A stretch of 64,000 bases of DNA, from assembly GCF_964204865.1 (NCBI RefSeq), contig NC_135260.1, positions 20,940,001 through 21,004,000 of the forward strand, in the 5' to 3' direction. The DNA comes from Styela clava (lineage: Eukaryota; Chordata; Ascidiacea; Stolidobranchia; Styelidae). Every line of letters starts with the position of its first letter. Position 1 is the first letter of the stretch. The translations under genes were made by a program, and so were the position numbers. Positions 19,080 to 63,216 of the stretch are shown piece after piece. The notes beneath the pieces are model-generated. The model did no database searches, was not told the DNA's origin, and saw only the letters and a list, made by a program, of their open reading frames with translations.

Positions 19080-19545
19080 ATATTGTTATAGATGTGATTA
19101 ATGATTCATTAGAAATACGAGCGAGTTTGTTAGTTCGGATGAATCATTTATTTTTACTTTGTCAAAAACACAAGGACACCGAACCTGATAATGTTTCTAA
19201 CAAGTCAACATGGTGCATGCAAAGAAGACTAGAAGGGTCGTAGCCTTGAATAAGATTGAGAGGTTACATAAATATGCGCTCCCTCGCCTGATAAAAAAAC
19301 ACTAAAAAGGAATGAAACTTGTAAGCACATATGTTAACACACGAGAGGCACTTGTAAGTGCCCCAACCAAAACAAACTTAAAGTGATTAACATTTAGGCC
19401 ACATTTTAAAACATCGTTCATTCTAGGCGCAAAACGCACTGAAGGGTATTCACCTCTTTAGCGCCTCCACTGGATAGTGAGCAGGACGTCAGACGACGAC
19501 TTCGCGATTGTTACTCTGGCGCGTTTTTTTTTATCTGTCTGTGTA

Positions 19546-21731
19546 ATGGCTGAGCGTATCTTTAGCGACGATTTGAAATATCTTCCTGATTTTAGTTTTG
19601 ATGACGTTACAGAATATGCTGAAAAGCATGCTGGGAATGGAAATAGCACCAAGAGAGGATACAAATACTTCTGGGAGTCTTTCATCCACGATTACAAAGG
19701 TATGGTAAGTTAGGTAGGGCAAGTAAGATTTTTCAGCGAGCGGGACATGATGATGTCACATGTACCGTAACCACTGTTATAATTTTAAGCATTAAGAACG
19801 TCAGTAAATAATGACTTGTGATGTACATTTATTCATGGGCTATTCAGGATTTACCTATTTATCTAAAAGGCAGGGGGCAGCTTATAATTTACACAGCTTT
19901 TCTAGAATCTCCGTCTGCTGTTGGCATTTTTGGAGTGGAAGTGGTGACTCCTCTTCGGCCCATGGGCCGGGGCCACGGCCCATCAGGCTATGGGCCGCGG
20001 CCCATCAAGTTGTGTAAAGAAACTATTCACTTGGCTAACACAAACAGTCCCCAAACTCATAATAGAACTATAATGTAAAAAATCTGAACAAAATTTTGCC
20101 CTAACCCTAACCTGGTACACATACTACAGGAGTTTATTTTTTTGGTTCGAATATTGACAATTTTGTAAAAATTGAAAATTTTGGTAAGATAATTAAATTT
20201 TTCCTGACGGGGCCGCGGCCCATAGCTTGATGGGCCACGGCCCATGTGGCCCAATTAGATGGGCCGTGGCCCCGGCCCATGGGTCGTAGAGGAGTCACCA
20301 CCCCTGTGGCATTTTTGTACAATGGAGGAGTTTGAGATAAATCAACTATCTAATCTCATTACACCTAGGTTTCGATTAAACCATGCTGAATATGCAACAA
20401 CCATTGAAAGCAAATTAAGCTGTAACTTATCACTAATATGCATTATTATTTTCACAGTTTTCCAAGATGGTCAGAAATTTTTAATAAAGGCAAGATGTTA
20501 TCGATCACAAAGAAAAAACGAGCCACCTCATTCATTATTTGTAACTTTGCGACGGAACAATGTACTGAGTGCTACTTGCTCTTGTACAGTGGGAGAAGCA
20601 ATTTGCTGTCATTCTTTAGCATTGTTGTACTGCACTGCGCATTTCAGCAATCTCCAACTAAAGAAAGTCCCCCCAGCTATCACTGGCACTATGCAATTAC
20701 AATCATGGCATCATCCAAGAAGCGAAGGATTCAAGCAGCTGCCTATCCAAAAAATTATTATTCAAAATCCATGTTCGAAATCCATCAGAACAATTCGCAG
20801 CACTCTACACAAACCTGGAAGAATCCCGCAATGGCAGAGCTTTCTAAATTTTAGTCAATATAATATTCAGTTAAATACAATTTTGCCGTCAAATCCGTCT
20901 TCTGTTGTAAGTATTTCAACAAATTTTGGACAAGCACCATTTGGGAGTCCTCTAGCATATCAACAGATATGTGATGAGAAAAGTTTTGAATTCCCTTCTC
21001 TCCCTCTGTCTAGTTTGTCTCCACAGACTAACACGGTGTTAACAGAAATGCAACACAAAGTGATGCAAAATCTGACTTTGGGCAGAGAAGATTGTAAACA
21101 CATTGAATTTATGACTCGAAATCAGTATAACTCTCCGATTTGGCACCAACAACGAAAATTTAGAATTACAGCATCCAAATTTGGCCGAATTTATAAACGT
21201 GTTTCAAATTTTGACTCCCTTGCTTCAAATCTTACTTCTTCCAAATTATTTCAAACTGCAGCAATGAAAAGAGGTATCCAAATGGAACCAGAAGCAGTAA
21301 AATTATACGAGGAAATAAAAAAATGCCAGTGTTCCCCATGTGGATTGGTAATATCTTCAACTTGTCCCTGGTTGGGGTGTTCACCAGATCGTAAAGTTTA
21401 CGACCCATCTTGTGATGGCAACCTATGCTATGGCTTATTAGAAGTCAAATGCCCCATTTCTGACACTTTTGACAAGGTTTCTTGTCTTTTTAAAAATGAT
21501 AAAGGGGAATGGACATTGAAAATGAATCATGATTATTATTTTCAAATAATGGGGTGTTTAGGAATCACAGGACTCAAGTGGTGTGACATCATTATTCTTT
21601 TACCTTCGGGTGCATGTTTTATTGATCGCATACATTTTGATGATGCATATTTTCTGGACCTACAAATGCGTCTGGAATCCTTTTTTTATGATCATTTCAT
21701 AAATACGATTGCAACAAACATGTCATCTTGA
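19546..21731 (+). CDS. Transposon-encoded YqaJ-type nuclease with SWIM zinc finger
   Basis: This is the second protein of ISL2EU transposons; its YqaJ domain belongs to the lambda-exonuclease/PD-(D/E)XK fold, and its exact role in transposition is not established. Two exons, 19546-19699 and 20458-21731, join with phase G+TT to give 475 residues. Exon 1 encodes MAERIFSDDLKYLPDF and ends HDYK; exon 2 continues FQDGQKFLIKARCYRSQRKN. A SWIM-type finger CSC-x7-CCH follows (CSCTVGEAICCHSLALLY). The YqaJ part shows WHQQRKFRITASKFG, AMKRGIQMEPEAV, WLGCSPDRKV and LLEVKCPIS, with the expected E/D/E-V-K active-site pattern, then HDYYFQIMGCL. No stop or frameshift is seen. The start could also be at 19477, in the same frame. 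The gene meets the transposase gene tail to tail. Confidence 0.87.
19930..20306. mobile_element. GC-rich foldback element nested in the YqaJ intron
   Basis: GTGGTGACTCCTCT near the left end pairs with AGAGGAGTCACCAC at the right, followed inward by inverted GGCCCATGGGCCGGGGCCAC and GTGGCCCCGGCCCATGGG. TGGCATTT occurs directly on both sides (19922-19929, 20307-20314), an 8 bp target duplication. The extreme left terminus is diverged by a few bases. Internal sequence includes a piece like the foldback MITE family (CCTAACCTGGTACACATACT). It lies inside the intron of the YqaJ gene. Confidence 0.75.
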
Positions 21732-22153
21732 GGACAAAAATTTTTCACTTTGTGAAATGTCTGAAGGATAATTATATATCAAGAGAAAAAACTTGCCTAG
21801 GCATTTATGTATTTTATTGCTTTAAATTTAGAATGTAGTAACCAGTTGCTTTGGGCTTTCAACTATTTTTCAATAAATTAGTATTTTGTGTATTCGCCAT
21901 AGTGCAATTTGTTGAAAACAGGCGAGACAGGCAGTACAAAAGGCTATTCTGAATTTTCCCTTTTCTTTTACTGTTAACCTAATATAATGTTGTGACACCC
22001 ACACCCTCTGCTGTATATTCTAACAAAGCTAAGATCTTTAAAGGGACATAAAATATGTCCTGAATGTATTTGATAAACTAAACTGCTCGAACTAAAAATA
22101 ATTATTCAACAATAAACAAACTAAAACTGAAAAATAAAACTAAATAACTACTT

Positions 22154-24852
22154 CTAAAACAAAGGACCGCTAAAGTTGGTTAATAAGCAAGCAACAGTCC
22201 ATAGTTGATTAACTGTTCCTAGCATACTCAGTGGTATTCTGCCTTCGAATAACTGATATTCTTTCACCCTTCTGATTGCTCGTTCTACGTGGACTCTAAG
22301 TGAAGCAATCTTGCTGGACCGCAATGCCTCCTCATATGTGAACCGCCCGTTAAAGTTGAATGGAGGAATATTTAGACCCACACCTTTCACTTCCAAGAGA
22401 CTCCTGATGGCAAATCCTTTGTCGCACATTACGGAATCCCCTCTTTCAAGCAAACTCAAAATTCCAGATCTCCGGGTTATTTCACTGTCTGATATGCTAC
22501 CGCAAAATAATAAACTGACAAAAGTTATTGGACCATGGGGTGCAATACCCAATAAACATTTTAATGTTGTATGGTTTTTATAAAATGAAAAAAACTCACT
22601 TTGGAGCATGAGTGAAGATGGTGACTGGCATAAAATTTCACAACAGTCAAGGACTATGCGTGTAGATTCATAACCTTGGTTTTTAAAACACTGTGGCATA
22701 TTTTCATAAACCTGCTCACGAGTAGGCCAAATTGGGATAGATGCCAAGGTAAAATAAATAAAATTAGCCCATGTGATAACTATCCGAGAGACAGTGGACT
22801 GTGATATGCAAAAAACATCACTAAGATGGATCTCATCAAAGCCCTGTCTCAGACGACACAAAAATAAAAATAGTTCATCAGCCAGTGGAAGCGATCGCTT
22901 CTTACAAGGGTGGTCTAAAAAATCGCTACTTCCATTATAAACTTCTTCGCTTACAGCAGACCATAGTGTTAAAGAGTTAGCACAGTCCAACAATATGTGG
23001 AAAAAGTCAATCAATAAACAATAGGAACTAAAGCCAGTATAATATTTAATCATGGAGCTTGACGCCTTGAAACGTTCCATACCGAATTTAGATATTGACA
23101 GCTTTGAAACTTGAGTTTTTAAATTCTCAATTTCTTTTAAAGCTTGCTCAAGTTTTTCTTCAGCTGTTTTCACTACAATGCAGTAGTTGTGATCCACTTG
23201 AGTAGGATTAATGTGATTAAAACTCAGACTGCTGGTCCGACTGCTTGGTACAGTGGCATCATCAGTGGTTCTGTACAAATATAATAAAATTCATTAGCAG
23301 AGAAATCACATATTCATCCTGGGGAAAGGAAGGATGATAAGACGGCTCAATTATATGATGAAGCAGATATCGGTGAAAAGTCATATTGTACCCAAATTAC
23401 AGCTTCAAGTATTGAATCCTCTGCATTGCATGTATATGTGTAAATCAAATAATGGCACTGAATTGACTATTGTTATGGCTAGCTGTGAGGCAACTAGCAA
23501 AGTTGAATGATGTGCTTGGTAGTCTAAATTAGTATCTGGCTTTCTATCTTTTTTGTCGGGAATATATGCTAACATTGTAGGCATCATAGAAAACTAAGAA
23601 CCGAATACAGATTCTATTAGCCAGAGCAGGCTATATCTTATAACTATGTGTTTGCACAATGAAAGTGTTTATTTTGTATTACACTGTTTACCTATTCTTG
23701 GCACTATTGTGGCCCGCTAACAATGCAAAAATAATTTTGTGGCCCGCGGAGCCGACAATGTTGGACCACCCTGATATTCTAGACTTTTATAGTCTGTCAA
23801 AATATTTTTTCAAATTGGTTAATTTTAAATTTTGGTTTGATACTAGTATGGTGGTATAGTCTAATTCAAAAAATGATATATTCTGTTTTACCTCAGTCTG
23901 TTTGGCAGTGGTCTCTCTGCAATTAACTTTGTCCAACTAAATTTTGATGGAACTGAGTTGTGGTGCAAACGGCGTCGACCAGAAGGCGTCTCATATATGT
24001 CTTCGGGTCTGAAATGGTTGCCACAAACTCGTGTGCTTGGTGTAATCTGTTTTAATAAGTCAAAATAAACTAGCTGATACGAACGGAATAAATAACACCA
24101 ACTAAAGTGAAGCTAGGCTTCAAGGAATTAATGTATGCCGCCTAATAATAATATAGGTTATCAAGTTTAGCTTGATTCCCATAATCAGTACACCAGGAAG
24201 ATATTGACAAAATAAACACTTATTAGTCTACAGAATCAGAAGAGCCCTAACTAAGATTTGAAAAGAGAAGAAGTTAAATTAATTTAATTAAGTGATTCAA
24301 GAGTCTTGCTGCACACCAAGACTCACAGCAAGACTCTTAAATCACTTAGGATAGTTATCTTTACTCTTGCTACAGCATCCTTGCATTATATGCATACCGA
24401 TCCGCCGGCACAAAAGCATAGAAGAAGGATAAGTAGTTAGTTTCGTAGAAACCAAATCATTAGTTAAATTAATTGTTGCTAAAACTGCAAAAGAAAGTCG
24501 TGGGCTGTGCTCACCTTAAATACACTCACATACCGGTATGGCCTACAACCGCATACAGGCATAGATACAGCCTAATAACTAAAGTAGAAGCGAGAAGAGA
24601 AAATCAGGGTCAAAACTAAAATTAAAACCAGAACAAAAAAATATTTGCCACAATATACTGACTTACTTGAAAATGTTTACCAGGATCGCGACGAATACTG
24701 TGAATCCACGCTCTCTTCATTTTTTCATTTTTGGGGAAAGAGTGGAACGATAAGTCTGGTGAGTAACGGCTATCGCCATTACACAACGGTACGCAGCAAT
24801 GCAATTTGGAACCACCAGACGCACGAGCCGCCATTGCAATCGAAAAGCCCAA
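22154..24852 (-). CDS. ISL2EU-type transposase: THAP zinc finger plus DDE domain
   Basis: This is the predicted enzyme that cuts and joins the transposon ends. Three minus-strand exons, 24852-24667, 24046-23892 and 23270-22154, have GT/AG borders and closing phases (phase 0; AG+A), giving 485 residues. Exons 1-2 form a C2CH THAP finger: CCVPLCN, then FHSFPKNEKMKRAWI, then CGNHF with a downstream RLHHNSVPSKF. Exon 3 starts with a predicted coiled coil (AEEKLEQALKEIENLKTQV), then a helix-turn-helix-like DVFCISQSTVSRIVITW, then the catalytic domain: first D in RIVLDCCE, second D in VMCDKGF, and E in HVERAIRRVKEY. All three acidic residues are present. An internal ATG (MAARASGG) could be the real start. 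Confidence 0.87.
23452..23773. mobile_element. hAT-type MITE copy in transposase intron 2
   Basis: This is a relative of the element at 5250-5665: shared blocks CAAAGTTGAATGATG, GGCTTTCTATCTTTTT, ATATATGCTAACA, GCACTATTGTGGCCCGC and the right terminus TTGGACCACCCTG at 23773. The left terminus has been lost, so the start is approximate. It lies between transposase exons 2 and 3. Confidence 0.75.
24289..24348 (-). repeat. 23 bp stem, 14 nt loop hairpin in transposase intron 1
   Basis: Arms 24289-24311 and 24326-24348 are inverse complements except at one position, which becomes a G-U pair in a minus-strand transcript (the transposase sense strand). It may be a remnant of a small palindromic MITE or a folded RNA element. 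Confidence 0.7.
24360..24430. repeat. Short repeat shared with 45442-45502
   Basis: GCATCCTTGCATTATATGCA here matches GCATCCTTGCATTATACGCA at 45442, and both copies end in (A/G)GAAGGAT, making a small ATCCTT...AAGGAT inverted-end repeat of about 55 bp. Confidence 0.55.
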
Positions 24853-25642
24853 ACCAGTCCAACGTCGCGGGGAAGCAGAAGACAGTAGCTACTTTCCCGC
24901 GCATGCCCACATAAAAACAAAATGGCGACGCTCAGTGGCGATAATGAATACCCCCCCTTGGGTTCACTTCAGGCAAAGTCCTGCGTGAAAGGATTCTCAA
25001 CATCAAAATTTTGTACAAGTAATAAAACATCAGTTTACAGAGTAGGTCTAAATCCAAAATTGTAGATTTTCTCATGCGAGGTTTCAGACACCTTTTCTGT
25101 TGTTGCAGTGAGTTTATTGTGTTGAGGATAAAGAGCCAAACAAGCCATTGCCATATTGATAACTACAGTTCCATTCATTATTATATAAAAAGCAAAGGCT
25201 CCCCTCCGAAATCGTACTCGACTTTTTGCCTACCCCTGGGATTGCTATTTGGTCACAAGTCTTTGTTAGCTTTTTCTTCTGAGTAAAAATAAAATGGATT
25301 CAGTCTAAAAATGACAGACAAATTTATTCACTGTTTTCAATAACATAAGTCAGTTTGGTTACTGCAGTTTATCTTCAATGTTTTAATTTTATCGATGCTT
25401 GTAGCTTGATATTCGAAGAACGCTTGTAATTTCACAACTAATAAATACTGTTGAATTTTATGATAGTATGTTAGTCCAGCGGATAAGACCTCAAATATGA
25501 CGGAAGTGTGCCCTTTTGGATGCAAGCATGAAACTTGGCACACATGTACAGTAGCATCCCCTTATCAATTTTAGATATGGTGCCATCCAAGAAAATACCT
25601 CGTTGCCATGGAAACGAGGCATCATCCGTATTCCTATTAAAG

Positions 25643-26186
25643 CAGGGGTCGGGAACCTTTTTGGTCAAGAGAGCCATAAAATATAAATATTTTCAATTGC
25701 ATTTCCGTGCGAGCCATATAACATTTTTCACTTAATCAGGCCTGAAATGTTTACTCAAAAGTCAACACATACAATGTCAGTATACACTTAATGTGATTAT
25801 CTGATGCTGCATGTAGTCGCTGCGGGCCTTGAACGGTTGCTCACATGCAGCCCAAGTTGAAATCTACGATACTCATCGCCCTTTTTCGTTTAGGTATCTC
25901 CGTAGTGTTTTCAAAACTCTATCGCTTTGTGATGTCACAATATATGTTCCAGAATCCCCTTGTTTGTCACAATGCCTGTCTGGTAATTATCTTACATAAC
26001 ATACACATGTGCTGGACGCGCCTTCTCAAACGTATTGGGAATTTCCTGCCAAATTTGGCTATAAAAGAGTTTGAAATCGCGTAACAATAGTAAGCTTAGT
26101 CTTGGGATGTTAGATTTTTTTGGGAGCCATATGCCGTCACCAAAAGAGCCATATATGGCTCGCGAGCCATGGGTTCCCGACCCCTG
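25643..26186. mobile_element. hAT-type MITE inserted in the left inverted-repeat arm
   Basis: The ends CAGGGGTCGGGAACC and GGTTCCCGACCCCTG are a perfect 15 bp inverted repeat, and AGAGCCATA/TATGGCTCG subterminal blocks follow. Perfect 8 bp duplications TATTAAAG flank it (25635-25642, 26187-26194). The right arm of the large inverted repeat has the empty site with a single copy of this octamer near 29160. It is non-autonomous, 544 bp. Confidence 0.93.
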
Positions 26187-26945
26187 TATTAAAGGGAAAT
26201 AAACATTTCTTTAGGAAAGGATATTTTCAAGATAAGTAAACCGATGTGTATATAAGAAGTGAGGAATATGAACAAAAGTGCATTTTGACAATTTCCCTTG
26301 ATAACAGAACACCTGTTACCATGGAAACAAGGTATCGTTATCGACCAAACACGATTATAAGTCGCACAACTTGTATTTTCTGTTATTGTCATGGATCACA
26401 AATTAAGCTACATTCACTTTCAAAATGTAATTCCTTTTGTGCTCAATCAACTGCCATCGCTAATGGTATACTTTCAAACTCATAGCCACGTAAAGCTGGT
26501 GAAAATATAAAATATATATATATCTCATATAACTGACGTATTATTGTTATCTTGGAGCTATCATATATATTAATAAAGATAAATTCATTCTCTTAACTCT
26601 GGCATTAGTATCCCAGTCAAATAAAAACGGAAAACTTGCATTACATTTCAGCTCAAACTCGGCTGGAATCGTTGATTATTCTAATTTATATCTAACGTCG
26701 CCTTATGTAAATGCTACAAAAAGAAATAAATAGAAAAACGATTGAAATAATTATATTTTCCAAAAATATATTCCACAAAGACTCCCCAATACCTAGTGGG
26801 GGCAATTTTACTATTTAGATATATACTCCTGCACTTTTGGATGCAAGCATTAAACTTGGCACACATGTACAGTAGCATCCCCCGATCAATTTTGCAATGT
26901 CAGTCGTTATTTCCGCAATCCCCATCACAGAAACATAGTGAGGTA

Positions 26946-28094: not shown

Positions 28095-28440
28095 CTGATC
28101 TGACCAAGACGCTGTTAAGCCTACTGAAGCGAGAGGGGACAAGCGAAGTACCTGCACAATGCATTCAAATGATTGAAAGATTCATCGTACTGCTCTACGA
28201 TCAGACAAGTATGTTGTCAAAGGTATGTACATTTGAATTTAGCAATTACCCAGATGTTAGCTAGATGTTGAAATGCGGTTGAATCCTAATTGATGATTAG
28301 AATCGACAACATTTCGACCTCTATCTACCACAGAGCTGGTTGATTGTGGCTGCAAGAAAGGTTGTGCTGCTCGCTGCAAATGTTTCCGTGCTGATTTAGC
28401 ATGTACACCACTATGTTTCTGTGATTGCGGAAATAACGAC
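28095..28440 (+). pseudogene. Transposon-protein remnant with tesmin-like CXC cysteine cluster
   Basis: The first patch (about 28095-28220) reads IQMIERFIVLLYDQTS in frame, a motif I associate with an uncharacterised transposon-linked animal protein family. After a gap with stops, 28332-28440 reads LVDCGCKKGC-x3-CKCFRADLACTPLC and ends CDCGNND before TGA, the CxCxKGC...CKC...C-x3-C spacing of tesmin/TSO1-like CXC repeats. An inverted copy of the cysteine segment sits at about 27931-27999 in the left arm. The family attribution is from pattern memory; the CXC spacing is directly visible. Confidence 0.55.
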
Positions 28441-29325
28441 TGACATTGCAAAATTGATCGGGGGATGCTACTGTACATGTATGCCAAGTTTCATGCTTGC
28501 GTCAAAAAGTGCAGGAGTAATAAAATAGCAGGAGTCTAAATAGTAAAATTGCCCCCACTAGTTATTGGGGAGTCTTTGTGGAATATCTTTTTGAAAAATA
28601 TAATTATTTCAATCGTTTTTCTATTTATTTCTTTTTGTATCACTTACATAAGGCGACGTTTGATATAGATTAGAATAATCAACGATTCCAGCCGAGTTTG
28701 AGCTGAAATGTAATGCAAGTTTTCCGTTTTTATCTGACTGAGATACTAATGCCAAAGAGTTAAGAGAATGGATTTATCTTCATTAATATATATGATGACG
28801 ATACGATAGCTCCAAGATAACAGTAATCCGTCAGTTATGAGATATATATTTTATATTTTCACCAGCTTTACGTGGCTATGGGCTTAAAAGTATACCATTA
28901 GCGATGGCAGTTAATTGAGTGCAAAAGGAATTACATTTTGAAAGTGAATGTAGCTTAATTTGTGATCCATGACAATAACAGAAAATACAGGTTATGCGAC
29001 TTATAATCGTGTTTGGTCGATAACTCGTTTCCATGGTAACAGATATTCTGTTATCAAGGAAAAATTGTCAAAATGCACTTCTGATCATATTCCTTACTTC
29101 TCATATACACATCGGTTCACTTATCTTGAAAATATCCTTTCCTAAAGTAATGTTTATTTCTCTTTAATAACAATACGGATGATGCCTCGTTTCCATGGCA
29201 ACGAGGTATTTTCTTGGATGGCACCATATCCAAAATTGATCAGGGGATGCTACTACTGTACATGTGTGCCAAGTTTGATGCTTGCATCCAGAAGTGCATG
29301 ATTTTACCTCTTATCCGCTGGACTA

Positions 29326-32900: not shown

Positions 32901-35900
32901 TTTAGTGATGCAGAATATATACTGCCTACATATTGTCCCTGCTTCCACGCTGATGATGTTGATGTAATCATTTTTTTTTTAATTTTTCATATTGACAATT
33001 CTTATGAAGTATATAGGCCTATATAGTATTTTTAAACCATGATACGTCAAACGCTAGTTATGACAATTTTTCAAATGAAAATATCCTAAACTAGAGCTGC
33101 GTGCAGCTTTAACAGGCTTCCTGCGTAAAAAAAAATGAAGACGCGTTTTGCTCACTGGAGCGTGAAAGCGTGATCAGTCATGCATAAAATTTGCATTTTA
33201 TTGCTAGCTGAGAACTTCTGCACATTTGAGGTGACTTTCAAGTTTGTAGGACCAATTTGAAAAAATAAAAATAAAAATAAATAAATAATAATAAATAAAC
33301 TAGAGCTGCGTGCAGCTTTAACAGGCTTCCCGCGTAAAAAAAACTGAAGACGCGTTTTGCTCACTGGAGCGTGAAAGCGTGGTCAGTCATGCATAAAATT
33401 TGCAATTTATGATGGGCGACTTAATATCTGCATGTGATGTAAATTTCAAGTCTCTAAGTAGTGTCGTTCTCGAGAAGAAGATGAAAATGTAAAATCCTAT
33501 ATTGCTCACTGGAGCGTATCGCCGAGGTCACTCATGCGTATCCTTGACATATCGTATCCGGAACATGTCCATTAATCATTGTTATGAATTTCAACCCAAT
33601 AGCATGTATCAATTTTGAGAAATCGCAAAAAAACTGAAGACGCGTTTTGCTCACTGGAGCGTGAAAGCGTGGTCAGTCATGCATAAAATTTGCATTTTAT
33701 TGCTAGCTGAGAACTTCTGCACATTTGAGGTGAATTTCAAGTTTGTAGGACCAATTTGAAAAAAAAATAATAAAAATAAATAAATAAATAATAATAATAA
33801 ATAAATAAGAAGAAAGAAGGAAAAAAGAATTGATGGAGAAATACAGAGTAAAACAGAAAGGATTGTCATGCGCAACTGAAGAACTACGACAAAGAATAAT
33901 TGCAACTGCAGCAAAAATCAAGAGATATACAGAGAGAACAAGACAATTTCGCCAAAATAGACTGTTTGAAAGCAATCAAAAGCAATTATATCGGGAGTTA
34001 TCAGGCGATTTTCATACCAGTAAGGATGTAAGTAGAGAACCACAGAATTGCAGAGAATTTTGGAACAACATCTGGGGATCTAAAACCACTCATAATCAAA
34101 AATCTGCTTGGCTAAAAACAGTAAAGAAAGAATTGGAAAATATTCCTACTCAATTAAATTTCACGATAACTAAAGAAATTCTCAAAAGACAATTGAAAAA
34201 ACTAGCTAATTGGAAGTCTCCAGGGGTTGATATGGTACAGGCATACTGGGTGAAAAAGTTCACTAGTCTGCATGCACAGATTGCAAAACAACTTGACTAC
34301 TGTCTTCAGCAAGGCAAGGTTCCAAGTTGGATTACCGAAGGAAAAACAGTATTGATTTTGAAAAACGAAAACAAGGGAAATAGTGCTAATAATTTTCGAC
34401 CAATAACTTGTTTATGGAAATGGTTTATGGAAATTATTTACAGGAATGATTGCAACTAGTATATATGACCACATTGAACAAAACGATTTATTCCCGACGG
34501 AGCAGAAAGGGTGCAAGAGAGGGTCGCGTGGGCCAAAGGATCAATTTTTAATTGACAAAATGGTCTTGGATAACTGCAGAAAACGAAAAACAAGTTTATC
34601 CATGGCATGGATAGATTATCGTAAAGCTTACGATATGATTCCCCATTCATGGATTTCCAAATGCCTGGATTTGTTTGCAATAGCCAAAAATTTGAAAAAA
34701 CTAGTCATAAACAGTATGGAAACATGGAGAACGCATTTGACGGCAAATGGAAAACATTACGGAGAAATTCAAATAAAAAGAGGAATATTTCAGGGCGATA
34801 CTCTCTCTCCACTTCTTTTTGTTCTGTGTATGATTCCACTGACGATGGTTTTGAGAAAAACAACACAATCATACTGCATAGGAAAAGGAAAGGAGCGGCT
34901 GAACCATCTCTTGTACATGGACGATTTGAAACTATTCGGAAAAAACGACAAAGAAATAGACTCTTTAGTGAAAACTGTACACATTTTCAGTCGGGATATT
35001 GGAATGGATTTTGGGATAGATAAATGCGCAGTATTAAGTATGAAAAGGGGAAAAATTACTGACAGTGTGGGAATTTGTTTACCAGATGGGAATAGCATGA
35101 GCCAGCTCGAGGAAAGCAATGGATACAAATACCTTGGAATATTGGAATCAAATTCGATAAACGAAAATCAAATGAAGAAACTGATCATCCATGAATATAC
35201 TAAACGATTAAAACAAATTCTAAAATCAAAATTAAATGGCGGCAACATTATCAAAGCTATTAACATACGTGCAGTTTCGGTAATTAGATACAGCGTTGTT
35301 TTTATTGGTTGGTCAAAAAACAATCTTGAAAAGCTCGACCGTAAGTCAAGAAAACTTTTAACAATGTACGGAATGCTTCATCCCAGAGGTGATGTTGACA
35401 GATTGTATTTGCCAAGGCAAATGGGGGGGCCGTGGATTAATGAGTGTTGAGGACTGTATTCAAGCAGAGAAGAAAAGTATGACAGAGTATGCAAAGAATA
35501 GTGAAGATATTTTGATGAAAGCCGTGTATCGCGAGGGTATTTTGTGTGGCGACGAAGACTCAAATGCATTTAAAGAAAGGAAAATAGATGAAAGAATGGA
35601 AAGGTGGAAAGGAAAACCGTTGCATGGGAAATACCTTCGTGAAACTAAAAATATAATGGTCGAGGACTCATGGAACTGGCTAAAGAAAGGATACCTCAAG
35701 AAGGAAACGGAAGGTTTGATAACAGCTGCTCAAGAACAGGCTTTGAGAACAAATGTTATCAAAGCAAAAATCGAAAAGCGGGGAGTGTCTGCAAAATGTA
35801 GAATGTGTGATGCAAGAGATGAGACAGTTTTTCATATATTGTGTGAATGCTCAAAATTGGCGCAAAGAGAATACAAATATCGACACGATAATCTAGCAAG

Positions 35901-38900
35901 AATTGTTCATTGGGAACTCTGCAAACTATACGGCCTTAACAGAGGAAACAATTGGTACGACCACACCCCAGAAAAATCACAAAACAATGATAACGTTACG
36001 ATTCTATGGGATTTTAACATACAAACAGACCACGTCATTACCCACAGAAGGCCTGATATTGTAGTAATAAATTCATCCGAAAATACATGCTTGATAATCG
36101 ACATAGCAGTTCCGGCCGATCATCGTATTTTATTAAAGGAAAAAGAAAAAATAGAAAAATATCAAGATTTACGGAGAGAAATGGGAAAAATATGGAATGT
36201 AAAAACGAGAATTATACCTGTTGTCGTTGGTGCCTTGGGTGCAATATCAAACAAGCTAGAAGGGTATTTAAAAGATATGAATTTGCCTAATAGATTGGAA
36301 TCTTTGCAAAAGGCGGCTCTTTTGGGAAGTGCAAGAATACTGAGAAGGGTTCTTGAAATCTAAGGACGCGGGACGTGTCTCGATTTCAAGAAAATATACA
36401 CCAGTCAAAGAACTGTGAATAAATTTAACAAACATAATAATAAATAATAATAATAAAACACAGGAATACAATAGGTTCCCTGCTGACAAGCAGCGGGAAG
36501 CCTAATTATCCCTATGACATACAGTAATTGAATTATTCAAACAAATTGACAAACCTGTATCTTCTTCATCATCTGATGACAACACAGCAGATCTTTTTTT
36601 CGTTGGTGAAATATTAGTATCTTCAGCATCACTCCTTTCATTCTCTGAACCAGAAGAGGCCCCTAGAAATGTCAAAAAATGATACATATTCAGCATCTAA
36701 TCTTTTATGTAGGCTATGTGACATCTAATCAGTTACAGTATTTTAATTACATGTGTTGATGTCATATACTTGACTTCCATCCAAAAAGGTGTTAATATCA
36801 TTTACAAATTCTTTGAATATATATCATATACTGCAATGAAGAGATGATTGCTGATAGATAGAGGGGAATGAATCGATTTAGCTTTTTTATTTACAACATA
36901 TTTAAATTAGAACAATCCTTTGAGAGCAATCATGCATGGATTTACCTCTAACAATGTTTTTGTTGAATGATTGAGTTTGTTTTCAATCAATTCTTACATG
37001 ACTTTGTCTAAAAAAAGACCTACAAAGCCAAGTGTTCATAGAATTCACAAAAAATCGAATGAATTCATGAAATGAGGCAGAATTTCAACTTTCTCTTGAA
37101 AATAGCTTAATACATCTTATCGAGTATGATCTAGTGCAGTGTTCTTCCACCTTTATTCATCGCGACACCGACTCACTTGGCATAGCAAAATTTTTTTCAA
37201 AATCCCCAGTATGGTAACTTTAATTAGACCAATGTGATTGCATATTCTCGCACAAAAGATTGAACTATGGCTCTATTTCGGGGATCGTGGGTTACTGATT
37301 CCAAATCTTTCAAATTTGATCAATATTTTGTTGTAACATAAGTTTTTTTTCACAGATGAGTGGATGCAAAAGGAAGAAGTCTAAGTATGGATAGTTCTGA
37401 CAATAATTGGTGCCGCAACCCCTAGTGAGCCCATTTGCAACCCACCACAGGGTCGGAACCCCAATTTTAAAGATCCCTGATCTAGTGTAATGTTCAAAAA
37501 GGAAAGGATGCAGAAATATTATTATATTTCATTCCACCTCTAAGATCATCTTCTGAAACTTCGCCAAGTTTATCATTTGTTTTATTTTCATCTTCATTTT
37601 CACTGTCACTGACATGTTGAGCAACATTATCTTCTGCATCACTCTCTGCTTTGTCTTCTTCAACTTCAACAACATTATCAAAATCTTCTTCATCACTGTC
37701 TCTACGCATCACAAATAAGGAAAACATTTTAAAAATAATTGAACCAGACTTTTTTTTGACCAGTAGTGAATGAAATGGATGGGTATGTACTTAATCACAA
37801 AAATGACTCAACTATTATTAGGTGATCCAACATAAAATAATCAATATAAGCATGTTTAGTTCAATAAATTGTTGTTTTGAACACTGAGATAAAAGGTAAA
37901 CAAAGTTTTGACATACTTATGATCTTCATAACAATATCTCCTACAATATTCTTGATAATAATGTTTCTACCAGCATGTCCAACTCATTTTCATACACCAA
38001 GAAAGATGAGAAATAGGGCTAAAATTCAAATTATTCTCAACAAATAGGTTAAAATAACATATTATCAAACTTACCCTTGAGTAGCTTGAGTTGTTTCTAC
38101 TTGCACATCATTAGAGTCATCTCCTGCTTCATTTATCGGATTCTCAACTTTATCATCATTAGCTTCTTGCATTTCATCAGTTGCATGTACCTGATCTTCT
38201 TGTTGTTCGATTTCTATAGAATCATCATCCACATATTCTTGTTCTCCAGCAACTTGCTGATGTTCAACAGCCTCATCTTGTCCCTTATTACTGTCCTCAT
38301 CTTGAGGAATTTCCTCATGATCCAAAATTTCTTCTTGTTGGTGAGATACTTCCTCTTCCTCAGCTACTTCCTCTTGAGCAATATCTTGAAATTCTTCTTC
38401 TTCGCCAACTTCGTTATTTTCTGCATCATTGGCATCTACATCATATTCTTGGTATTCTAGTTCTGTTTCATTCTGGATCTCTTGTTCCTCCTGAAGATTA
38501 CGATAAAATAGTGAAATAATAGGAATAGGAAGGATTTGAAAATAGGATGAGACTTTTAAATATATTCAATAAAGAAAGCTAAATAACATATTGAATAGAG
38601 TAAAAAAGAAAGTCTTGACAAAATCAGACACAGTTAGGTAGTAAGTAGAAATGTGACCTAGATCGTTACGATTTATTAATAATCAAATCTGAGCTAAGAA
38701 AGATGTAAAAATTATTCAATCCTAATTTGAAACTGAAGATTCATAAAGACTCAACCGAAGAAAATGCATATGCAAAAAGTTGTCTTTCAAATGAAATTGG
38801 CATTCTCGCACAAATTTCATATTTTGTAAATCATTACAAAAGTTGACTGAGTGACTTTTCCGGATCAGTGAATAAATTTATTATATTTGAAAATGACAGA

Positions 38901-53037: not shown

Positions 53038-56000
53038 TCAAGATTCCAGCCACCTCCTCAATGATGACAGCGCATTTCCGAATGTTCTGAGACCAGGATG
53101 TGTTCCTCTAAAATTAAGCAACAATGTTCCTGCTTCAGCAATATTTTCCTGATCTTGAAGCTGACGTGCCAACTGGTTTACATGCCGTTTTGCATCAGTA
53201 CAATCACCAGATAGAAGATACTCTGATATTCTTGCATAGTAGAGAGTCCCAACAGTTTCAGCAGCAATAGAATTTTCGAGCATCAATCGAACTAATTCTT
53301 CGTCACATTGACTGGGTCCCATACATTTGACTGACTTTATCGCGTTAATGAGCTGGTCACGCATTGCAGGTATGTTTGTCAAAAGAGCAAGCTTGATTGC
53401 AAAGAAAGAGAGTTTAGCCTGCATTAATTTCTTAAAAATATCATTTATAGAGCTTTCCGTTAGCATTTCTTTGTTCCTTCTTATTATTTCGATGATTTCT
53501 TTTCCTCCATCTTGACCAAAGTCTGCAAGATTAATAAGCAATAACTGCCAACTATCAGCTAGCATTTTCGAAGTTGAAAACTGAGGCCATATGTTGAGAA
53601 GTGTGATCAGATGCTTTAATTTCATAATGTCAAGTTGATCGGAAATTAGAAGATTTTGAAACAAAGCAAAACGTTTGTTATCATCTGTGATAATACTGAT
53701 GAATTCTTCATCACCTGCTAATAAATTATCACATGTTTGCATACCCCAACCATCTCGAACAATTGCTCTTGATCTATGTAAAAGGAGAAGGTTTGCTTCA
53801 GAGTCTGCCAACTCAAATTGATCTTCTAAAAGTTGTAAAATATCAACTCGTATCTTCACTTCCACACTGACATCACTACAGAATGGACGCAGCAAATCTA
53901 TAACTTGACTGGATGTAAACACACTTCCATTCTCTTTCACATGATCACCAATCGTGATGACAATAGAAGAAATCTTATCAAATACTAAATTGCTGTCATC
54001 TGATGATGTAAAATCTTTTATAAGATCATCAACACATTTTCGCAAAACATTTGCTGGTGACCATTTGTTACCGGGAACAACGGCAAGAAAACCTTGCAAA
54101 AATGTTGGAGAACAGCCATCACAGAGCATAGTTGCTGCAACATCTAATATTACCTCAGGCCGAGACTGAGATTTATCATAAAGCCATAAATAATGTTTCA
54201 TTTTTTCATCCGTTTTTGATCTTTTCACCAAATCTGAAATGAATGTAGTTGAGTAGCTATCTAAATGCTTAGACATTTGCAGAAATACTGGCAATACTGT
54301 ATGAAAACTTTGTCCATTTTGTAAAATTCCTTCGTCCAGTTGATTTTTCCGTTCTTTTGTGCCTTGTATTTTACAAAGTTTAATTCCCTTTTTCATAATT
54401 TCTTGTCGAGTCTTTTGCGGCAACAGTTCGGAAAAATCTGATGTTGAGAACATTTGTTGAAAAAACGACAGAAGATCATTGGGATAACACATACGTAAAA
54501 ACGAGTTACATGAATCATACCGCATGCTCCAATTAATATCTTTTCCCAATGATTCAGCTGATGATTCTGCCCACATCAAGTTTCTTGCTACTAAGAGATA
54601 AAGTGAACTTGCGCTCATCTTAAACGACGAATAAGGTATAGTTGGCATCATCTTAGCAAACATGGGTATATTATCTGCATTTAATATAGGACAAAGAATA
54701 TTAAGAATAGTTTGGTGGGTCGATGTTTTTTCATCACTGACTATCACCTTGTAGTCCAAACTTGGTGCAACACTTTTGATTTTCCGCAACATCTTGATAT
54801 GATCAGCAGGTGAGATTTTACATAAATTATGACTTGATACAAATTGTTCCTGCATTGATGCACATTCATTCAACAAGCTATAATATAGAATAAGTCTGTC
54901 ATGATCTTTGCCACTTATGAAAGGATATGTATACTTATCCATTCTGTCAAAAAATTCACTCGGACGAGTTACCAGTTCAGGAACCATGTTAAGGTTTTTA
55001 ATACGTTCATGTAGATCTTGACAATTCAGTTCTTCTTGGCAATCAGAGAACAAGTATTCCAAATGTGTAACCAATACCAACCAAAGATCTGTACCGGAAC
55101 GATGTGCAAGTGAAACAGCTAGTTTGTATTGTTCTTCATCAGACGTCATGGCAAGACCTAAGATTGTTTCTTGTTTGTAATCATTATCTTTAGTAAACCG
55201 ACCAAGATCGATGCCCCGTCCCAGTTGTTGAAGTTTTTCACCTTGTGAAAAGTCATACAATTGTTCTCGAAGCTGGATTAGGTAAGAAGACACAAGTTTT
55301 GCTTTATGATCTCCTTTGTAATCAGAAGATTCTGCTATATCTAGTGCATGTTTGATCAGTTTCAATGGAGGAACATTATATAAAACTGATTTAGAATCTA
55401 ATAAATGATCTTCTGAATCGAGGCCTAACAGTAGCAATGAAAAATAATACAATGCCATTTGTATTGACAATGCTGATATTGGAAACATTTGCATACAAGA
55501 AAATGCATTTTCTGGATTTGGAAATGCGAGGAGATATCCAATACCAAGTGCAAAATCATATGGTAGAACTTCCTTGACCATATTTTCGAGCACTATTACT
55601 TCATCATCAATATTTGAGCCGAGTTGTTCATGCATCTGCTGTGATAGCTGTAAAATACGAAGCTTGGCTTGATACATAGAAACAGGCGTAGGAATGAAAT
55701 AACTTCCCTTGTTAATCAGCAGGCCATGCTTTGTTACGGAGTTTTCAATAATACCTGAATAAAAATCTGAACAACCTTGTAATTCCAGATCCTCATTCAA
55801 TAACTCTTTTTCAGGTTCTAATTCCATAACTTGATCATCTGGTATGGGAATAATAGAAAGAGTTTGATCTATTGTATTTTTCCACCAATCAGTATTACCG
55901 ACATTTGACAAAACGGCTTTTGTTGTGCTGGAAGTAGCAGATAGCATTGTGCCAGTAGCAGATAACATTACTTTTGTTCCTTTTGCAGTTGATTCCAACA

Positions 56001-59000
56001 TTTTTGTTGGCGACAAAAAATCAGATGTAGATGAAACAAATTTATTGAGTGGGTTAGAATCTTCTGAGAGTATCTCAAATGATTTAGGGAGAGTGGGTGA
56101 CTCTTCTTCCATCACATGCTCATCCACATCTTCAGGATTAGAAACCAACTCAGTATTTTGTGTCTTATGTTTGCTGATAACATTTTGAAGTATTTGTGAG
56201 TCCAAAACACACATCTGCTCCATTACTTTTACCAGTTTTGATTCATCACAAAAGCAGACTACAAAGGCCAATATGTCTCTCTTGGCAATTATATCTTCGA
56301 AATCACTTTCACAAGCCAATCTAAAACAAACCTCCCATGCCTGCGTGTAGGACATGCCTATCAATTCTTGACAAAGGCAATATGCTGTTTGCAAATCATT
56401 ACAATTAAGTGCTTTGTCAATGATCATGTTCAAAATCCGTCCCTTTCTTTCTTCTTTGTTTAAACCACAAACTCTAAAAAGCATTCCTAAACGAAGCAGT
56501 GGCTCTGTCTTTCGGTACGCATCATTGTCCATGTCTATTGCTTTTTTGATGAGAGATAAACGATCTTCCGTTAACCTCACTTGTAGAGGCAACTTGTCAA
56601 CCCCAAATCTTTGCAAAAGCACAACACCCTCTATCATGTCAAGTTTTTCGTGTATCAATGGAGGTCTGTCTGTAATCAACAACAGACATTCTCTTGCTAA
56701 ACTAAGCATATTATCCTCGCTGTGAGGAGATGACGCATCAAAATATTCTTGGGATGATTTAACAACGAGAGCAACTGAACTTTCATACGAGAGTTTTTGC
56801 TGTGCTGGATAAAGCCGTTTTCTGCTTGCTTCACGTTCTTCATCTGCGGTACGCATCATACGCTCACCTGCTATTCTGAAGTTGGCAATACTTCCCGATG
56901 TTAGAAGACTTTCCACAAAAACTTCAAGGCAAACTGCAGCTTCAAGATCACAAGTTTTTGAAAAAATTTGATTCCGAAGTTGCAACATATCTTTCAGCAA
57001 ATTGTTCCATCCATTGCTACCCAGAGGTGGCTCTTGTGCACCAGCAGTTCTACTTAAGCGAGTAAGAAGTCTTTCAACTTTCATTCTGTCATTTTCCACT
57101 TCTTTAACATCGAAAGGTGAAACTTTCACATTATATCCTGCTAATATTGAGCAGGTGTAAATGTGATTTTCTAACGAAGATATGTCTTCAATCAGATGAC
57201 CGGCCATATTGTTCATAACTAATCTATCTAGCTTTGCCAAGGATGCATGGATTTTTTTCACATAATCCAGCTGTGCTTTACCACAGAGATAAACAGACTC
57301 AAGAGCTAACTTTATTAACATTTCCAAACTTGCAATTACTGGAGGCATTGACTTATCCTGCAAGAAACTTGTGAATATCTGACAAGGAAATGTTAGATCA
57401 TCTTCCGCCATTTCCGTAACATATTTATAAAATATTATGGAGGCAGACTCAACATCATTGGTTGATTTTAAAAATGGTATAGCCCATCTGTGAAAGTTTT
57501 TACCATACATTTCTTTTGACGAGTTATCCATTAACATTTTCAGTTGTTCTAACTTGCTTTTTCTTTGAAGTTGAACAAAAGTCAAACCTGGATCATAGTT
57601 ACATTCATAGACCAGCATTTCCAACGTTTTAAAATCTCTTGTCAAGTCTTGAAGACCTTCAACGTAGTTCTCTGCCCCAATGCTTAAGATATCCAATGCT
57701 CCTTCAATGTCTCTAGCGTCAGTATCCATTTGCACAGCCTGTTGTAAATACCATTCTTTGACCAACTCTGCAGAAAGTGAAGTGACTCGAAAAGTTTTAA
57801 GATGTTTGTTTTCTTCATAAAAGTCATATGCTGGATCCACTGGTTGTGTCAGCAACGTCAATTTATGTTGATATTCCTCTTTTTCACACCAATCTTCAGG
57901 ATCACGATGCTTCACTTCAGGCCATTGACCGACTTCTCCCTCCTCATCAACGTAAGGCAACAAGCTTTTATATTCTGTAGGAGAAAGTGTCTTTGGAAAA
58001 TTTGACAAAATAGGAAGACGATGTTCTCGTAATTCATCTCCATGAAATGTTAGCAATATATCAACTGATTTCCAATCGCATGAACGAGCATATTCTAAAG
58101 CAGAAGTTAACATGTCCTGTTGTCTAAAGATTGCAAATCTTTCCCTGTTGTAACGTTCTCTTGCTGCATCGTAGCCGCCCAGTAGACTTTCATATGTAGA
58201 AAGTCTGTCAAAGTATTTCAGAATCTTTTTTCTTGTTCTAATAGTTTCTTTTTGTTCAAGTGATAAATTATCAAAATCAAAATTTTTCGACCATTTTTTA
58301 ACAAATTTTTCTCTTTGTCGTATTTCTTGTTGTCGTTGTTCCTCAACATCAAATCCTTCATATTCTTCATAATCTGATTCCGAATCTGAGGAAGTTGATG
58401 ATGATTTAGATTCAGTGTGTTTCACCTCTCCAATTTTATCAATATCTGTAACTGTCAGTGCAAACTTTAAAAGCTCTCTAGCAGCATCTAGTTCGTCAGG
58501 TACTCTTTCACAACACTCGTGCATGACCCATGATCGTTTTGTGACTTTGCTTAAATAGTCCTGAATAGATGCAACTGAAACAGGTGATTTTCTCCATTGC
58601 CTTTGGAACACTTTGTCACTATCTAAGTTATATCTACGTGCCAGAGCTAGTGCTTCACCATATTCTTCATCATCCAATTTTTTTTCAAAAAGTTTCTCAG
58701 GTGTTGTTTTTGTCAAAGTTAACAGTCTATATGACTTTGTAACAAGTTTGGGCCGCTTTCTTGGAGGTCTAAAATATTCAATTTCAGTTAAATCATACAT
58801 GGTTGATTTAGTGTAGTTTTTCAAACGGCCTGCTATACCTGGATGATCTTCTTTGTCACTGTCATCCAAAAATGGGTCATATTCCTCATCTTCCTCCTTT
58901 TGTGCTTCTTCTACCGAATCCATACGTTGTCGCTTCAATGTTTTAACTTGAGGTTGGCATTCTAACGCAAGGAAACCCTCATCTCTGCAGAATGATATTC

Positions 59001-60732
59001 TCGGAGCTGGCTCCAACCACTCGCATTGTTCACCAAAAAGGTTATCAAGAGACAAACCAGAAACACGTACAACTGTCAATGAACCAGAACAACGTGCTAA
59101 AATAACACTGGAGTCGTTCCACCACTGACAGTCAATAATGTTTTGTAATAAAGGATATTCCTTGAACTTTTTAGCAGAATTTATAGATTTCACAGCATCC
59201 GGATCCAGGCTATCAAAAAATGGTTGATCTTCTTTGTTCCAACATCTTTTGTGTCTGAGAGAAGGGATATCCCAGATGGAAAGACTACCGGATATTTGAA
59301 TTGTAGCCAGAAATTTACAACATGGTGATAATGACATCGTATATATTCCATCAAAAAACTGTTTTCGCAATTTTTTACCCAAACCTACTGGAACAGTGGA
59401 CAGCCTCCTCAGAAAACTCTGATTTCGTTTAGCATCATCAACATCTGAAAAAACATTCAGAGCTTTGAGAAAAGGTTCTTCTGACAGAAGCCGCCATGCT
59501 GTTAATCCAATCCTAGTCGCTCTCGGTACATCATCATCGCTCGTGGCATAACCAGCACATCCACCAACAATAATCATACTGTGGTCCTGATTATAAAGAA
59601 CACCACTCACTCCATTAGAATAACTAGGTGAAAAATCAAATTCATACGTCATTTGATAACCTCTTTCATAAATGCTGTTTATTTCAAGACAAGTCGCCAT
59701 TCCACTGTAAGACACGACCAATAAATGCAAACTGTCATCTTTATGTTTGTGTGTCACTTCATGTCCAATGAAAGTCAAACTACAAATGGCTGAACTATAA
59801 TCATAAGCTTTTTTGTCATCATTCATGTGACCTTGATAAGTGAGTAAAAGTATTCCTTTGAGGTCACACACATAAACGGTACCATCGCTGTCAGAAAAAG
59901 CAATTGTTGTAGAATGTAGACTCCAAGAAATTTTTCGCCATTGAGGAAAAAGGTCTTTTGTAAAATTGCAACGCCCGACTAGCACACTGTAGTCATCTTT
60001 GGATGAGAGAACTTCCAAACATCCATCTTGCAATACTGCAATAAAATTACCATCAGGTGATCTAGCAAACATCCATGATTCTTGGCTGTTTATTAACTTG
60101 ATCAAGTCTGGTGGCAAAATACATGATGCTCCTGATCTTACTGGAATACCAACAGCCCGGACAGTTGCCCATGTCCACCTTGATATTGAAGACTGAATCC
60201 GTTTGGCATTGTTGTAAATGACATTTGATTGAATTTCATCTTGTTGTGAACCTCCTGGAATATTATAAATTTTTATAATTACAAACATATTCAAGCAGCC
60301 AAATACAATTACGATTAATGACTGGTTTTAAAATTAAAATCGATTTTCACAGAATTAAAAAAAAATCTCTATAAACTGAAATATTACCACTGAGTTGTGG
60401 TCTTGTGGAGTCTGAAAATTCGCATTAAACTGCAAGCTGACTTAGGCTACTGAATAAAATATTGGGTCTGTCTGTTTGAAAATATATTTTCAACTTTAAT
60501 ATTAATAAAAGCTGTCAAATTCAGAGAATACACAGCTTCGTCATCGCCATGTATCAAATATGCTCACTTGCATAAAACTTTTTTTATATATGGATTTTTT
60601 TTTATATATGGACCAAGCAATAAATATCTCACCGACAACTTCCTTTTGTTCGGGCCATTCCACTTGATATGACAAGTCATATAATATTGCATCTTCTTCC
60701 AATGAATTGTCAGCTTGATTGCTAATATTCAT
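53038..60732 (-). CDS. NBAS: NBAS subunit of NRZ tethering complex
   Basis: NBAS pairs with RINT1 and ZW10 (NRZ/Dsl1 complex) at the ER to tether Golgi-derived COPI vesicles, and also acts with UPF1 in nonsense-mediated decay. The model has two coding exons: 60732-60633 (MNISNQADNSLEEDAILYDL, then EWPEQKEVV) and 60254-53038; phase G+GA closes, 2438 residues (human about 2370). The N-terminal third is a WD-repeat-like beta-propeller region (GNFIAVLQDGCLEV, AIAFSDSDGTVYVCDLKG type strands). The Sec39 domain begins near residue 560 (EEYGEALALARRYNLD) and extends several hundred residues, interrupted by an acidic S/E insert near 650 (SSSTSSDSESDYEEYEGFD). The long helical C-terminal half follows. 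The single 7.2 kb exon is striking, as vertebrate NBAS has about 50 exons. No internal stop or frameshift. Confidence 0.96.
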
Positions 60733-61332: not shown

Positions 61333-63216
61333 TCATAGCTTGTTTTGAGTATGCTTTTCACATCCACTATTGTGTTTTGTGTATGAAACATCTATCAACT
61401 CAATTACCCTAATTGTAACAATTTCAATCATATCAAAAGTATGCAATGCTGCCTCAAGTGTTCGCTTTTGCTCCTTGTATGGTAAAGTAGGTAATGGGGT
61501 TCCATTAACAAGAAATTCAGTTTTATTATCATCAGGACGTTTAGAACTCCGATCATACTTCTTTAGTTCATTTTCATAATGAGCTCGAGATAGGTCAATA
61601 GCATTCCTCAAAGGTTTTAGAAACTCTGTATCTAATTTATCCAAATGATCAAGTATTCCTGTTTTGTTCGTCTTATCTCTGATAAGAAGGAAACGAAACA
61701 AATTCAATGCAGGCATGAGTCTGTCACAGTCTTCAAGTAAATCAGTCTCTGTTCCTTGAGGTAATAAAAATATCAGCTCTCCTAGAGTAGACATTTTATG
61801 AGCTTCACAAAAAATTAAAGAATTTTTCGGGGAAATTTCTTGTAAAATTTCATTGAAACGGTCTTTTAAGTAACCAATCAAGACTCCTTGCACACCATTG
61901 TGATCTGTTGTTCTGAGCAGATGAACTAAAATTGAATATTTATCCTCCCAACGAAATAAATTCAGTAGTTTAGTCACATGTTGTATAGCAGTTGAACGGA
62001 TAGTTTTCGAAGGTAGCATAACAGCAATGCTAATGAGATTTTTAAAAACATCAAGGATGGGATTTAGTGATTGACTACGACCTTGAAAGCTTCCATAAGA
62101 CATCTTTATATTATAGACAACTTCGCCACATGAGATTGAGCTATCACTTGTTTGATTCAAAATGAATGAAAGAGTTTCTAAACCTTTCCATGCCACACAC
62201 TGGTTTTCACAAGAAAGTAGAGTGTTTAGTGATATGCATGTAAATACCAGAAGACATTGACTCGAATAAACTTTAGGAAATTGATCATAAAGCAAACCTC
62301 TACACAGCAATAAAAAAACATAACATGCTCTCGCTCGATCGACTTGTTTTACAATTTCAAATTTAGCTTCCATTGACCGCTCCTCAGCTGGTTGTAACTT
62401 GTACCAATTCACAATATGCCACAGAACATTTGGTGAGTGAAAATGTGTTATTTTAAGCATAACGTCACAGCATATTTTTGAAGTCCCCGGAAAAATTACA
62501 TTTTCTCTTATCGAGTCATTTTCTTTATCTGGTAAGGGCTCATCTAAGTCAACTTGTCCCAGCATTATGAGCAAATTGCATAAAAACTGAAACATATAAC
62601 TTTCAAATTGAAGAATATTTGAAGATATCTGGTTGTTTTTAGAGTATATTTCTCTCACCACTGGGTTTAATAAATCAATATATTTAGAAATAAAACTTTC
62701 AATTTTCTGAGCTTCGAATTTTTTTGTTCGTTTTAATGTGGGATCAAAATCTTCATACTTAGGAATATTTAGACTTTCAAGATAATATGATAAAGTTGAA
62801 AATGTAGTTTCAAGGACAGTGATACACGCATCGATGTCATTTAAAGCAAGCTTCTCAAGAACATTTGATAATGCAGGCATGAGAAGTTCAACATACATCG
62901 ACTCAATACTCGGGTCAAATTGTTCCAATATACCCAGATAAACATCTTTCGGTACTGCGAATCCAGCAATTTTCTCCAAACATTTCTCATATGTCTTCAG
63001 ATTTTCAGAAATGGCATTTTCTCTGAGAAAACTTATAGTGGAACCGATCAATTCCCAAGCAACAGGTCGGATAACAGTTTCTGCTTCTTTGTTTTCGTTG
63101 ATATAATCCCACAATTTTTCAGGATTCCCAAGAGCTCCTTGAAATTTAGTCTGGAAACTGTTACTATTTTCCACATCCTCTCCATCATGGACATGAGTTA
63201 ATTGAGAACTAGACAT
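61333..63216 (-). CDS. GLMN: Glomulin (FKBP-associated / RBX1-binding protein)
   Basis: Glomulin is an all-helical HEAT-like protein that binds the RING domain of RBX1 and blocks E2 access to cullin-RING ligases; it was first found as an FKBP12 partner. One uninterrupted frame of 627 residues (human 594) runs from ATG at 63216. Recognised stretches: KLWDYINENKEAETVIRPVAWELIGSTISF near the N-terminus (given in part), ESMYVELLMPAL, RACYVFLLLCRGLLYDQFPK in the middle, RSTAIQHVTKLLNLF, GVLIGYLKDRFNEI, and LMPALNLFRFLLIRDKTN towards the RBX1-binding C-terminal part. The vertebrate gene has many introns; here the coding region has none. It sits in the same orientation as NBAS, 600 bp upstream of it. 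Confidence 0.92.
   Translation of the reverse strand: MSSSQLTHVHDGEDVENSNSFQTKFQGALGNPEKLWDYINENKEAETVIRPVAWELIGSTISFLRENAISENLKTYEKCLEKIAGFAVPKDVYLGILEQFDPSIESMYVELLMPALSNVLEKLALNDIDACITVLETTFSTLSYYLESLNIPKYEDFDPTLKRTKKFEAQKIESFISKYIDLLNPVVREIYSKNNQISSNILQFESYMFQFLCNLLIMLGQVDLDEPLPDKENDSIRENVIFPGTSKICCDVMLKITHFHSPNVLWHIVNWYKLQPAEERSMEAKFEIVKQVDRARACYVFLLLCRGLLYDQFPKVYSSQCLLVFTCISLNTLLSCENQCVAWKGLETLSFILNQTSDSSISCGEVVYNIKMSYGSFQGRSQSLNPILDVFKNLISIAVMLPSKTIRSTAIQHVTKLLNLFRWEDKYSILVHLLRTTDHNGVQGVLIGYLKDRFNEILQEISPKNSLIFCEAHKMSTLGELIFLLPQGTETDLLEDCDRLMPALNLFRFLLIRDKTNKTGILDHLDKLDTEFLKPLRNAIDLSRAHYENELKKYDRSSKRPDDNKTEFLVNGTPLPTLPYKEQKRTLEAALHTFDMIEIVTIRVIELIDVSYTKHNSGCEKHTQNKL

Follow-up and report, generated by a model that had tools for sequence, protein, structure and literature searches.

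The stretch of DNA analysed here (the window, 64,000 nucleotides) carries a transposase gene and a gene for a lambda-exonuclease-like nuclease side by side, which raises the question of what kind of mobile element this is and what the nuclease does in it. A sequence-only reading had proposed a two-gene transposon of the ISL2EU type, and this was borne out by the gene models, the protein domains, and the terminal inverted repeats (TIRs) and AT duplications of sister copies. An ISL2EU element with open genes almost certainly occupies window positions 19441-24956, a length of 5516 bp (Table 1). Among ISL2EU elements, the window copy is an ordinary example of a known group; the gain lies in its exact ends, its apparently non-canonical target, its sister copies and the signs of selection on its nuclease.

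Gene models and protein domains

The YqaJ gene on the plus strand encodes 475 amino acids, with a GT...AG intron and no internal stop, and thus assembles as had been claimed for a 475-residue YqaJ/SWIM protein; an in-frame alternative donor at 19706 would give 477 amino acids. Pfam analysis revealed matches to YqaJ (3.5e-15; 57 bits, the cut-off being 22) and Viral_alk_exo (1.8e-9), together with a SWIM match (0.022) that falls under Pfam's cut-off and a CxC...CCH motif at residues 92-103. The closest solved structure by sequence was the exonuclease 3syy (E 5.3e-7), with GxSPD and LxExKCP aligned. The residues that we take to be catalytic were assigned by motif (Table 1).

The transposase gene on the minus strand encodes 479 amino acids, again with GT...AG introns and without an internal stop. 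The open THAP-DDE gene of the sequence-only reading therefore stands, but not its length of 485 residues, which requires codons 5' of the ATG at 24834. Pfam matches to THAP (1.4e-15), HTH_Tnp_4 (9.4e-12) and DDE_Tnp_4 (1.2e-37) were all above the cut-offs, and D316, D391 and E437, likewise assigned by motif, are presumably the DDE residues. An AlphaFold model of the transposase exon alone was set aside, its mean pLDDT being 36.6.

Three introns had been predicted across the two genes, and all were recovered at the same coordinates with GT...AG boundaries. The THAP match covers all 87 model positions and crosses the junction of exons 1 and 2, which supports intron 1 of the transposase gene. Wherever the splice sites could be located in sister copies, GT and AG were retained, with the exception of the YqaJ acceptor of the copy L010. 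Splicing of the predicted introns is thus supported by domain continuity and by retained splice sites. The stop-to-stop frames that contain the main exons of the YqaJ and transposase genes are 490 and 378 amino acids long, respectively; in 60 Markov-simulated 64-kb sequences, the longest frame had a mean of 147 and a maximum of 206, so both observed frames were judged far beyond chance.

The convergent layout, with a shared 3' region claimed at about 420 bp, was confirmed, and the region measures 422 bp. To judge from the positions of AATAAA on both strands, there may be an overlap of some tens of bases between the 3' ends of the two transcripts. The YqaJ intron contains a private insertion of 374 bp, which was absent from all nine other copies aligned across the site, seven of which have an exact unbroken string there. 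This insertion is palindromic, and its arms are rich in GGCCC.

Table 1. Positions in the window of the features of the ISL2EU element
Feature	Position	Strand	Basis or remark
Left target duplication CT (target A|CT|T)	19439-19440		compared with sister copies reading AAT|GGAGGG
Left TIR GAAGGGTATTCA	19441-19452	+	position 2 (19442) altered in the window copy alone
YqaJ exon 1, start ATG 19546	19546-19699	+	gene model, exon comparison among copies
YqaJ intron, GT...AG	19700-20457	+	gene model, exon comparison among copies
Palindromic insertion in YqaJ intron, 374 bp, private	19933-20306		inverted arms; 11-bp target repeat TGGCATTTTTG (19922-19932, 20307-20317)
YqaJ exon 2: SWIM-like CxC...CCH, YqaJ domain, stop	20458-21731	+	Pfam, structure-sequence match, motifs
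Candidate YqaJ active-site residues D362, E380, K382	21387, 21441, 21447	+	motif
Common 3' region of the convergent genes, 422 bp	21732-22153		AATAAA at 21872, 22111, 22133 (+) and 21813-21818 (-)
Transposase exon 3: HTH and DDE domain (candidates D316, D391, E437)	22154-23270	-	gene model, Pfam, motif
Transposase intron 2, GT...AG	23271-23891	-	gene model, exon comparison
Transposase exon 2, THAP finger end	23892-24046	-	gene model, Pfam
Transposase intron 1, GT...AG	24047-24666	-	gene model, exon comparison
Transposase exon 1, ATG 24834, start of THAP finger	24667-24834	-	gene model, Pfam
Right TIR GGGGGGTATTCA	24945-24956	-	departure from GGAGGG common to L009
Right target duplication CT	24957-24958		sister-copy comparison

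Other features were observed in the window, among them further matches to the ISL2EU element itself. An element at 25643-26186, which from its ends we take to be of the hAT kind, has the end CAGGGGTCGGGAACC with an inverted partner and a perfect 8-bp flanking repeat TATTAAAG, and with these repeats it spans 25635-26194. The segments 26187-26940 and 28409-29169 form an inverted pair with 89.7% identity across 779 aligned positions. A reverse-transcriptase element on the plus strand (33809-36363; RVT_1 3.2e-22) is divided among overlapping frames, with repeats before it at 33087-33801. On the minus strand, an intronless frame of 2429 amino acids (53038-60327) matches the Nbas_N and NBAS models, and a frame of 639 amino acids (61333-63252) matches YAP/Alf4/glomulin; intronless frames of such lengths are unusual in an animal genome.

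Ends, target site and related transposon groups

Comparison of the ends of sister copies revealed a canonical arrangement, AAT|GGAGGGTATTCA...TGAATACCCTCC|ATT, in the target A|AT|T. The ends of the window copy had been placed at 19444 and 24953, which captures a 9-bp perfect core only; because the 12-bp TIR is visible in sister copies, we set the ends 3 bp further out on each side. Seven copies have both ends: four are flanked by AT/AT, L013 by GA/AT, L015 by TT/AT and the window copy by CT/CT. AT also borders copies with one end, on the left in L010, L016 and L019 and on the right in L022. The junctions of the window copy read A-CT-GAAGGG...CCCCCC-CT-T. The AT duplication within A|AT|T that characterizes ISL2EU was therefore found in sister copies, with the window copy itself deviating, and the TIR starting with GG was likewise found in sister copies, the window copy having GA at its left end and GG at its right end. 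For the CT on both flanks, insertion into a non-canonical target would be a simpler explanation than two mutations.

P elements combine a THAP domain with a catalytic domain of the P-element type and produce 8-bp duplications. A P element was rejected here because the catalytic domain is DDE_Tnp_4, no P-element model was among the matches and the duplication is 2 bp.

As described in the survey that defined the group (PMC4482050), ISL2EU elements are found in animals only, belong to the PHIS superfamily, have a mean length of about 4840 bp, duplicate AT within A|AT|T and have TIRs of 6-259 bp starting with GG; their transposase contains DDE, HTH and THAP domains, and their second gene encodes a YqaJ protein. 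The elements studied here agree in the THAP, HTH and DDE domains of the transposase, in the YqaJ second gene, and in the GG-start TIR and A|AT|T target of sister copies. The window copy differs in its CT/CT duplications, in two altered TIR tips and in its length, 374 bp of its 5516 bp being the private insertion. PIF/Harbinger elements have a related DDE_Tnp_4 transposase domain and two genes, but according to that survey Harbinger duplicates TWA and encodes a Myb/SANT protein in its second gene, and the element here shows neither feature; no Myb/SANT model was among the Pfam matches of either protein at E values up to 1. A PIF/Harbinger assignment was ruled out by the duplication, the gene content and the domains. 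Spy, the sister clade of ISL2EU with a related transposase, has one gene and an AAATTT target without duplication, as described in two sources (PMC4482050; PMC11304231), whereas the element here has two genes and a duplication. A Spy-like insertion without duplication would be possible from the AA/TT flanks of the window copy alone and is excluded by the sister copies. No relatives were found in the viral contigs scanned.

Sister copies and other families in the genome

A 601-bp piece of the element had 17 matches in the assembly that contains the window (376.6 Mb, 379 contigs). We examined 15 places, namely the window copy and 14 further places (L009-L022); the family has additional places outside this set (e.g., C5:24746856, C16:5208231, C2:13608201 and C14:4051886), and counts from the match listing are lower bounds. 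Identities were calculated over aligned bases with gaps uncounted, and L020 and L021 were excluded as fragmentary. L009 and L010 showed 99.4% identity to the window copy, L011, L012, L013 and L014 showed 98.0-98.6%, L015, L016, L017, L018 and L022 showed 96.3-97.2%, and L019 showed 81.8%. Copies more than 95% identical, as sought elsewhere in the genome, thus exist, with six of the 14 fetched places at 98.0-99.4%. Judged by these identities, the family is a small one with recent and older members.

Exon-by-exon comparison revealed that both genes are whole and open in the window copy only (1/15 places). L009 has an open YqaJ gene and one stop in the transposase gene; L010 has a stop and an altered acceptor in the YqaJ gene and lacks transposase exon 1. 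At the remaining 12 places, at least one of the two genes is damaged by indels, stops or missing exons. Sites were scored where five or more of the other copies, L019 aside, had a base and agreed; of 4581 such sites, 12 carry a substitution private to the window copy. Three of these substitutions lie in the YqaJ gene, three in the transposase gene (one of which changes an amino acid) and six outside the genes. The few private substitutions and the private 374-bp insertion indicate that this copy is young and not pristine, and it appears to be a recent insertion with its coding capacity intact. The word intact, used in the sequence-only reading, accordingly holds for both reading frames, but each TIR has an altered base close to its tip, and the insertion interrupts the YqaJ intron. 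The added claim that intact members are uncommon overstated their rarity, since 12 of 25 ISL2EU families are given as potentially active in the survey (PMC4482050).

L011 and L013 have a 296-bp deletion in common (window 21112/21407), which removes D362, and their flanks differ. A nuclease-dead derivative has therefore moved, and the proteins for this were presumably provided in trans. Eight internal-deletion junction rows were compared: four share 2-3 bp (three distinct junctions: L011/L013, one of L015, and L022) and four show none or filler. Internal deletions were dropped as a sign of abortive gap repair because 2-3 bp are shared in only 4/8 rows.

The copies also differ in an 8-bp unit, TTCATTTT, in transposase exon 1 (window 24716-24732). 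Two units are present in the window copy, L009, L013 and L014, and L022 is also doubled, with changes; a single unit in L011, L012, L015 and L018 shifts the THAP frame. As L011 and L013 are alike in the YqaJ deletion and unlike in the number of units, slippage may recur at this site.

Other ISL2EU-like families were found in the genome. A second family (L061:302-6860; G000 C9:5585101-5591659) has a THAP-HTH-DDE transposase 31% identical to that of the window copy, in a single open frame of 511 amino acids, convergent with a YqaJ gene. This convergent pair occurs at no fewer than three places, L061 (fetched) and the listed matches C4:24983610 and C6:21745049, and C2:20303830 has the transposase alone among the matches listed for the family. 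The L061 YqaJ gene showed a weak SAP match (0.11) in an upstream exon, and no terminal repeat of this family was found at the one locus examined. In a third family (L051:1495-3397; G000 C2), the YqaJ frame (-) and the transposase frame (+) are arranged back to back and not convergently, a layout that may be rearranged. At L062 (G000 C13:21932000-21938900), with a third listed match at C13:21943021, YqaJ fragments form tandem repeats at a spacing of about 4.8 kb and contain identical stretches of 300 bp, which points either to a duplication of recent date or to an artefact of the assembly.

Probable selection on the nuclease and its possible role

Comparison of the window copy with L016, L017, L018 and L019 gave pN/pS values of 0.22, 0.29, 0.25 and 0.27 for YqaJ and 0.25, 0.44, 0.33 and 0.29 for the transposase, these being simple counts and not model-based, with changes after the death of a copy raising the ratio. 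Against L019, third positions accounted for 65/113 differences in YqaJ and 36/66 in the transposase (one-sided binomial p 1e-7 and 3e-4). L020 gave a pN/pS of 0.39 in both genes, with third-position p values of 0.005 and 0.053. YqaJ ratios against the close copies L010, L011, L013 and L015 were noisy, with values close to 1 or higher, and the differences fixed between two subfamilies numbered 13 synonymous and 8 nonsynonymous in YqaJ and 9 and 12, respectively, in the transposase; these comparisons are weak evidence for selection. Counter-evidence comes from the private YqaJ changes of the window copy, all three of which alter amino acids. The nuclease residues D, E and K do not vary among three families, the YqaJ proteins of L061 and L051 being 30% and 31% identical to that of the window copy, and the H-x-x-Y-x-Q residues are also retained in both. 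Because D, E and K are kept across such diverged families, the nuclease site itself, beyond the protein alone, appears to have been selected while the elements moved. Overall, the nuclease was probably selected together with the transposase, and selection on it appears about as strong.

The function of the additional ISL2EU gene is called unknown in the group-defining survey (PMC4482050), and a search of titles and abstract openings found no functional test of it. Our explanation, with a probability of roughly 0.4, is that of a recent ISL2EU insertion whose transposase works by cut-and-paste and whose selected nuclease resects the donor break. The THAP-HTH-DDE transposase would bind the ends and excise the element, by analogy with the chemistry of the DDE family, and would insert it at sites resembling A|AT|T, duplicating 2 bp. 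The YqaJ protein, as a lambda-exonuclease-like nuclease encoded by the element and working in trans, would resect the 5' ends at the double-strand break left by excision. Repair of the resected break from the sister chromatid or homologue would then copy the element back at the donor site, and cut-and-paste would thereby add copies on balance. That YqaJ is such a self-encoded break-resection enzyme, the element's own copy-number amplifier through copy-back repair, is a tentative proposal that we consider less likely than not to hold.

The L011/L013 derivative speaks against the nuclease being strictly required in cis, and the movement of that derivative also suits the idea that the nuclease processes transposon ends or other DNA, such as intermediates or competing elements, with no part in donor repair, as its activity need not be local. 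The retained nuclease site fits this idea as well; no sequence feature seen here singles out a substrate, and the clean 2-bp duplications in four of the seven both-ended copies leave no extra trimming visible, so that we regard it as doubtful. YqaJ could instead be an accessory factor for DNA binding or recruitment, like the Myb-like protein of Harbinger, with its nuclease activity immaterial. The SWIM-like zinc motif points that way, as do the Myb/SANT second genes reported for the related PIF/Harbinger, NuwaI and NuwaII in the survey (PMC4482050), but an invariant D, E and K would be needless in a mere scaffold, and we hold this role, too, to be possible and on the unlikely side. Domestication of the locus as a host gene pair would agree with both genes being open at a single place, but is highly improbable given TIRs, matching 2-bp duplications, near-identical copies and few private changes, which indicate a recent insertion.

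The material for an experiment is at hand: with a young family, an apparently selected nuclease and one copy in which both genes are open, the role of the ISL2EU second gene is testable at the bench.
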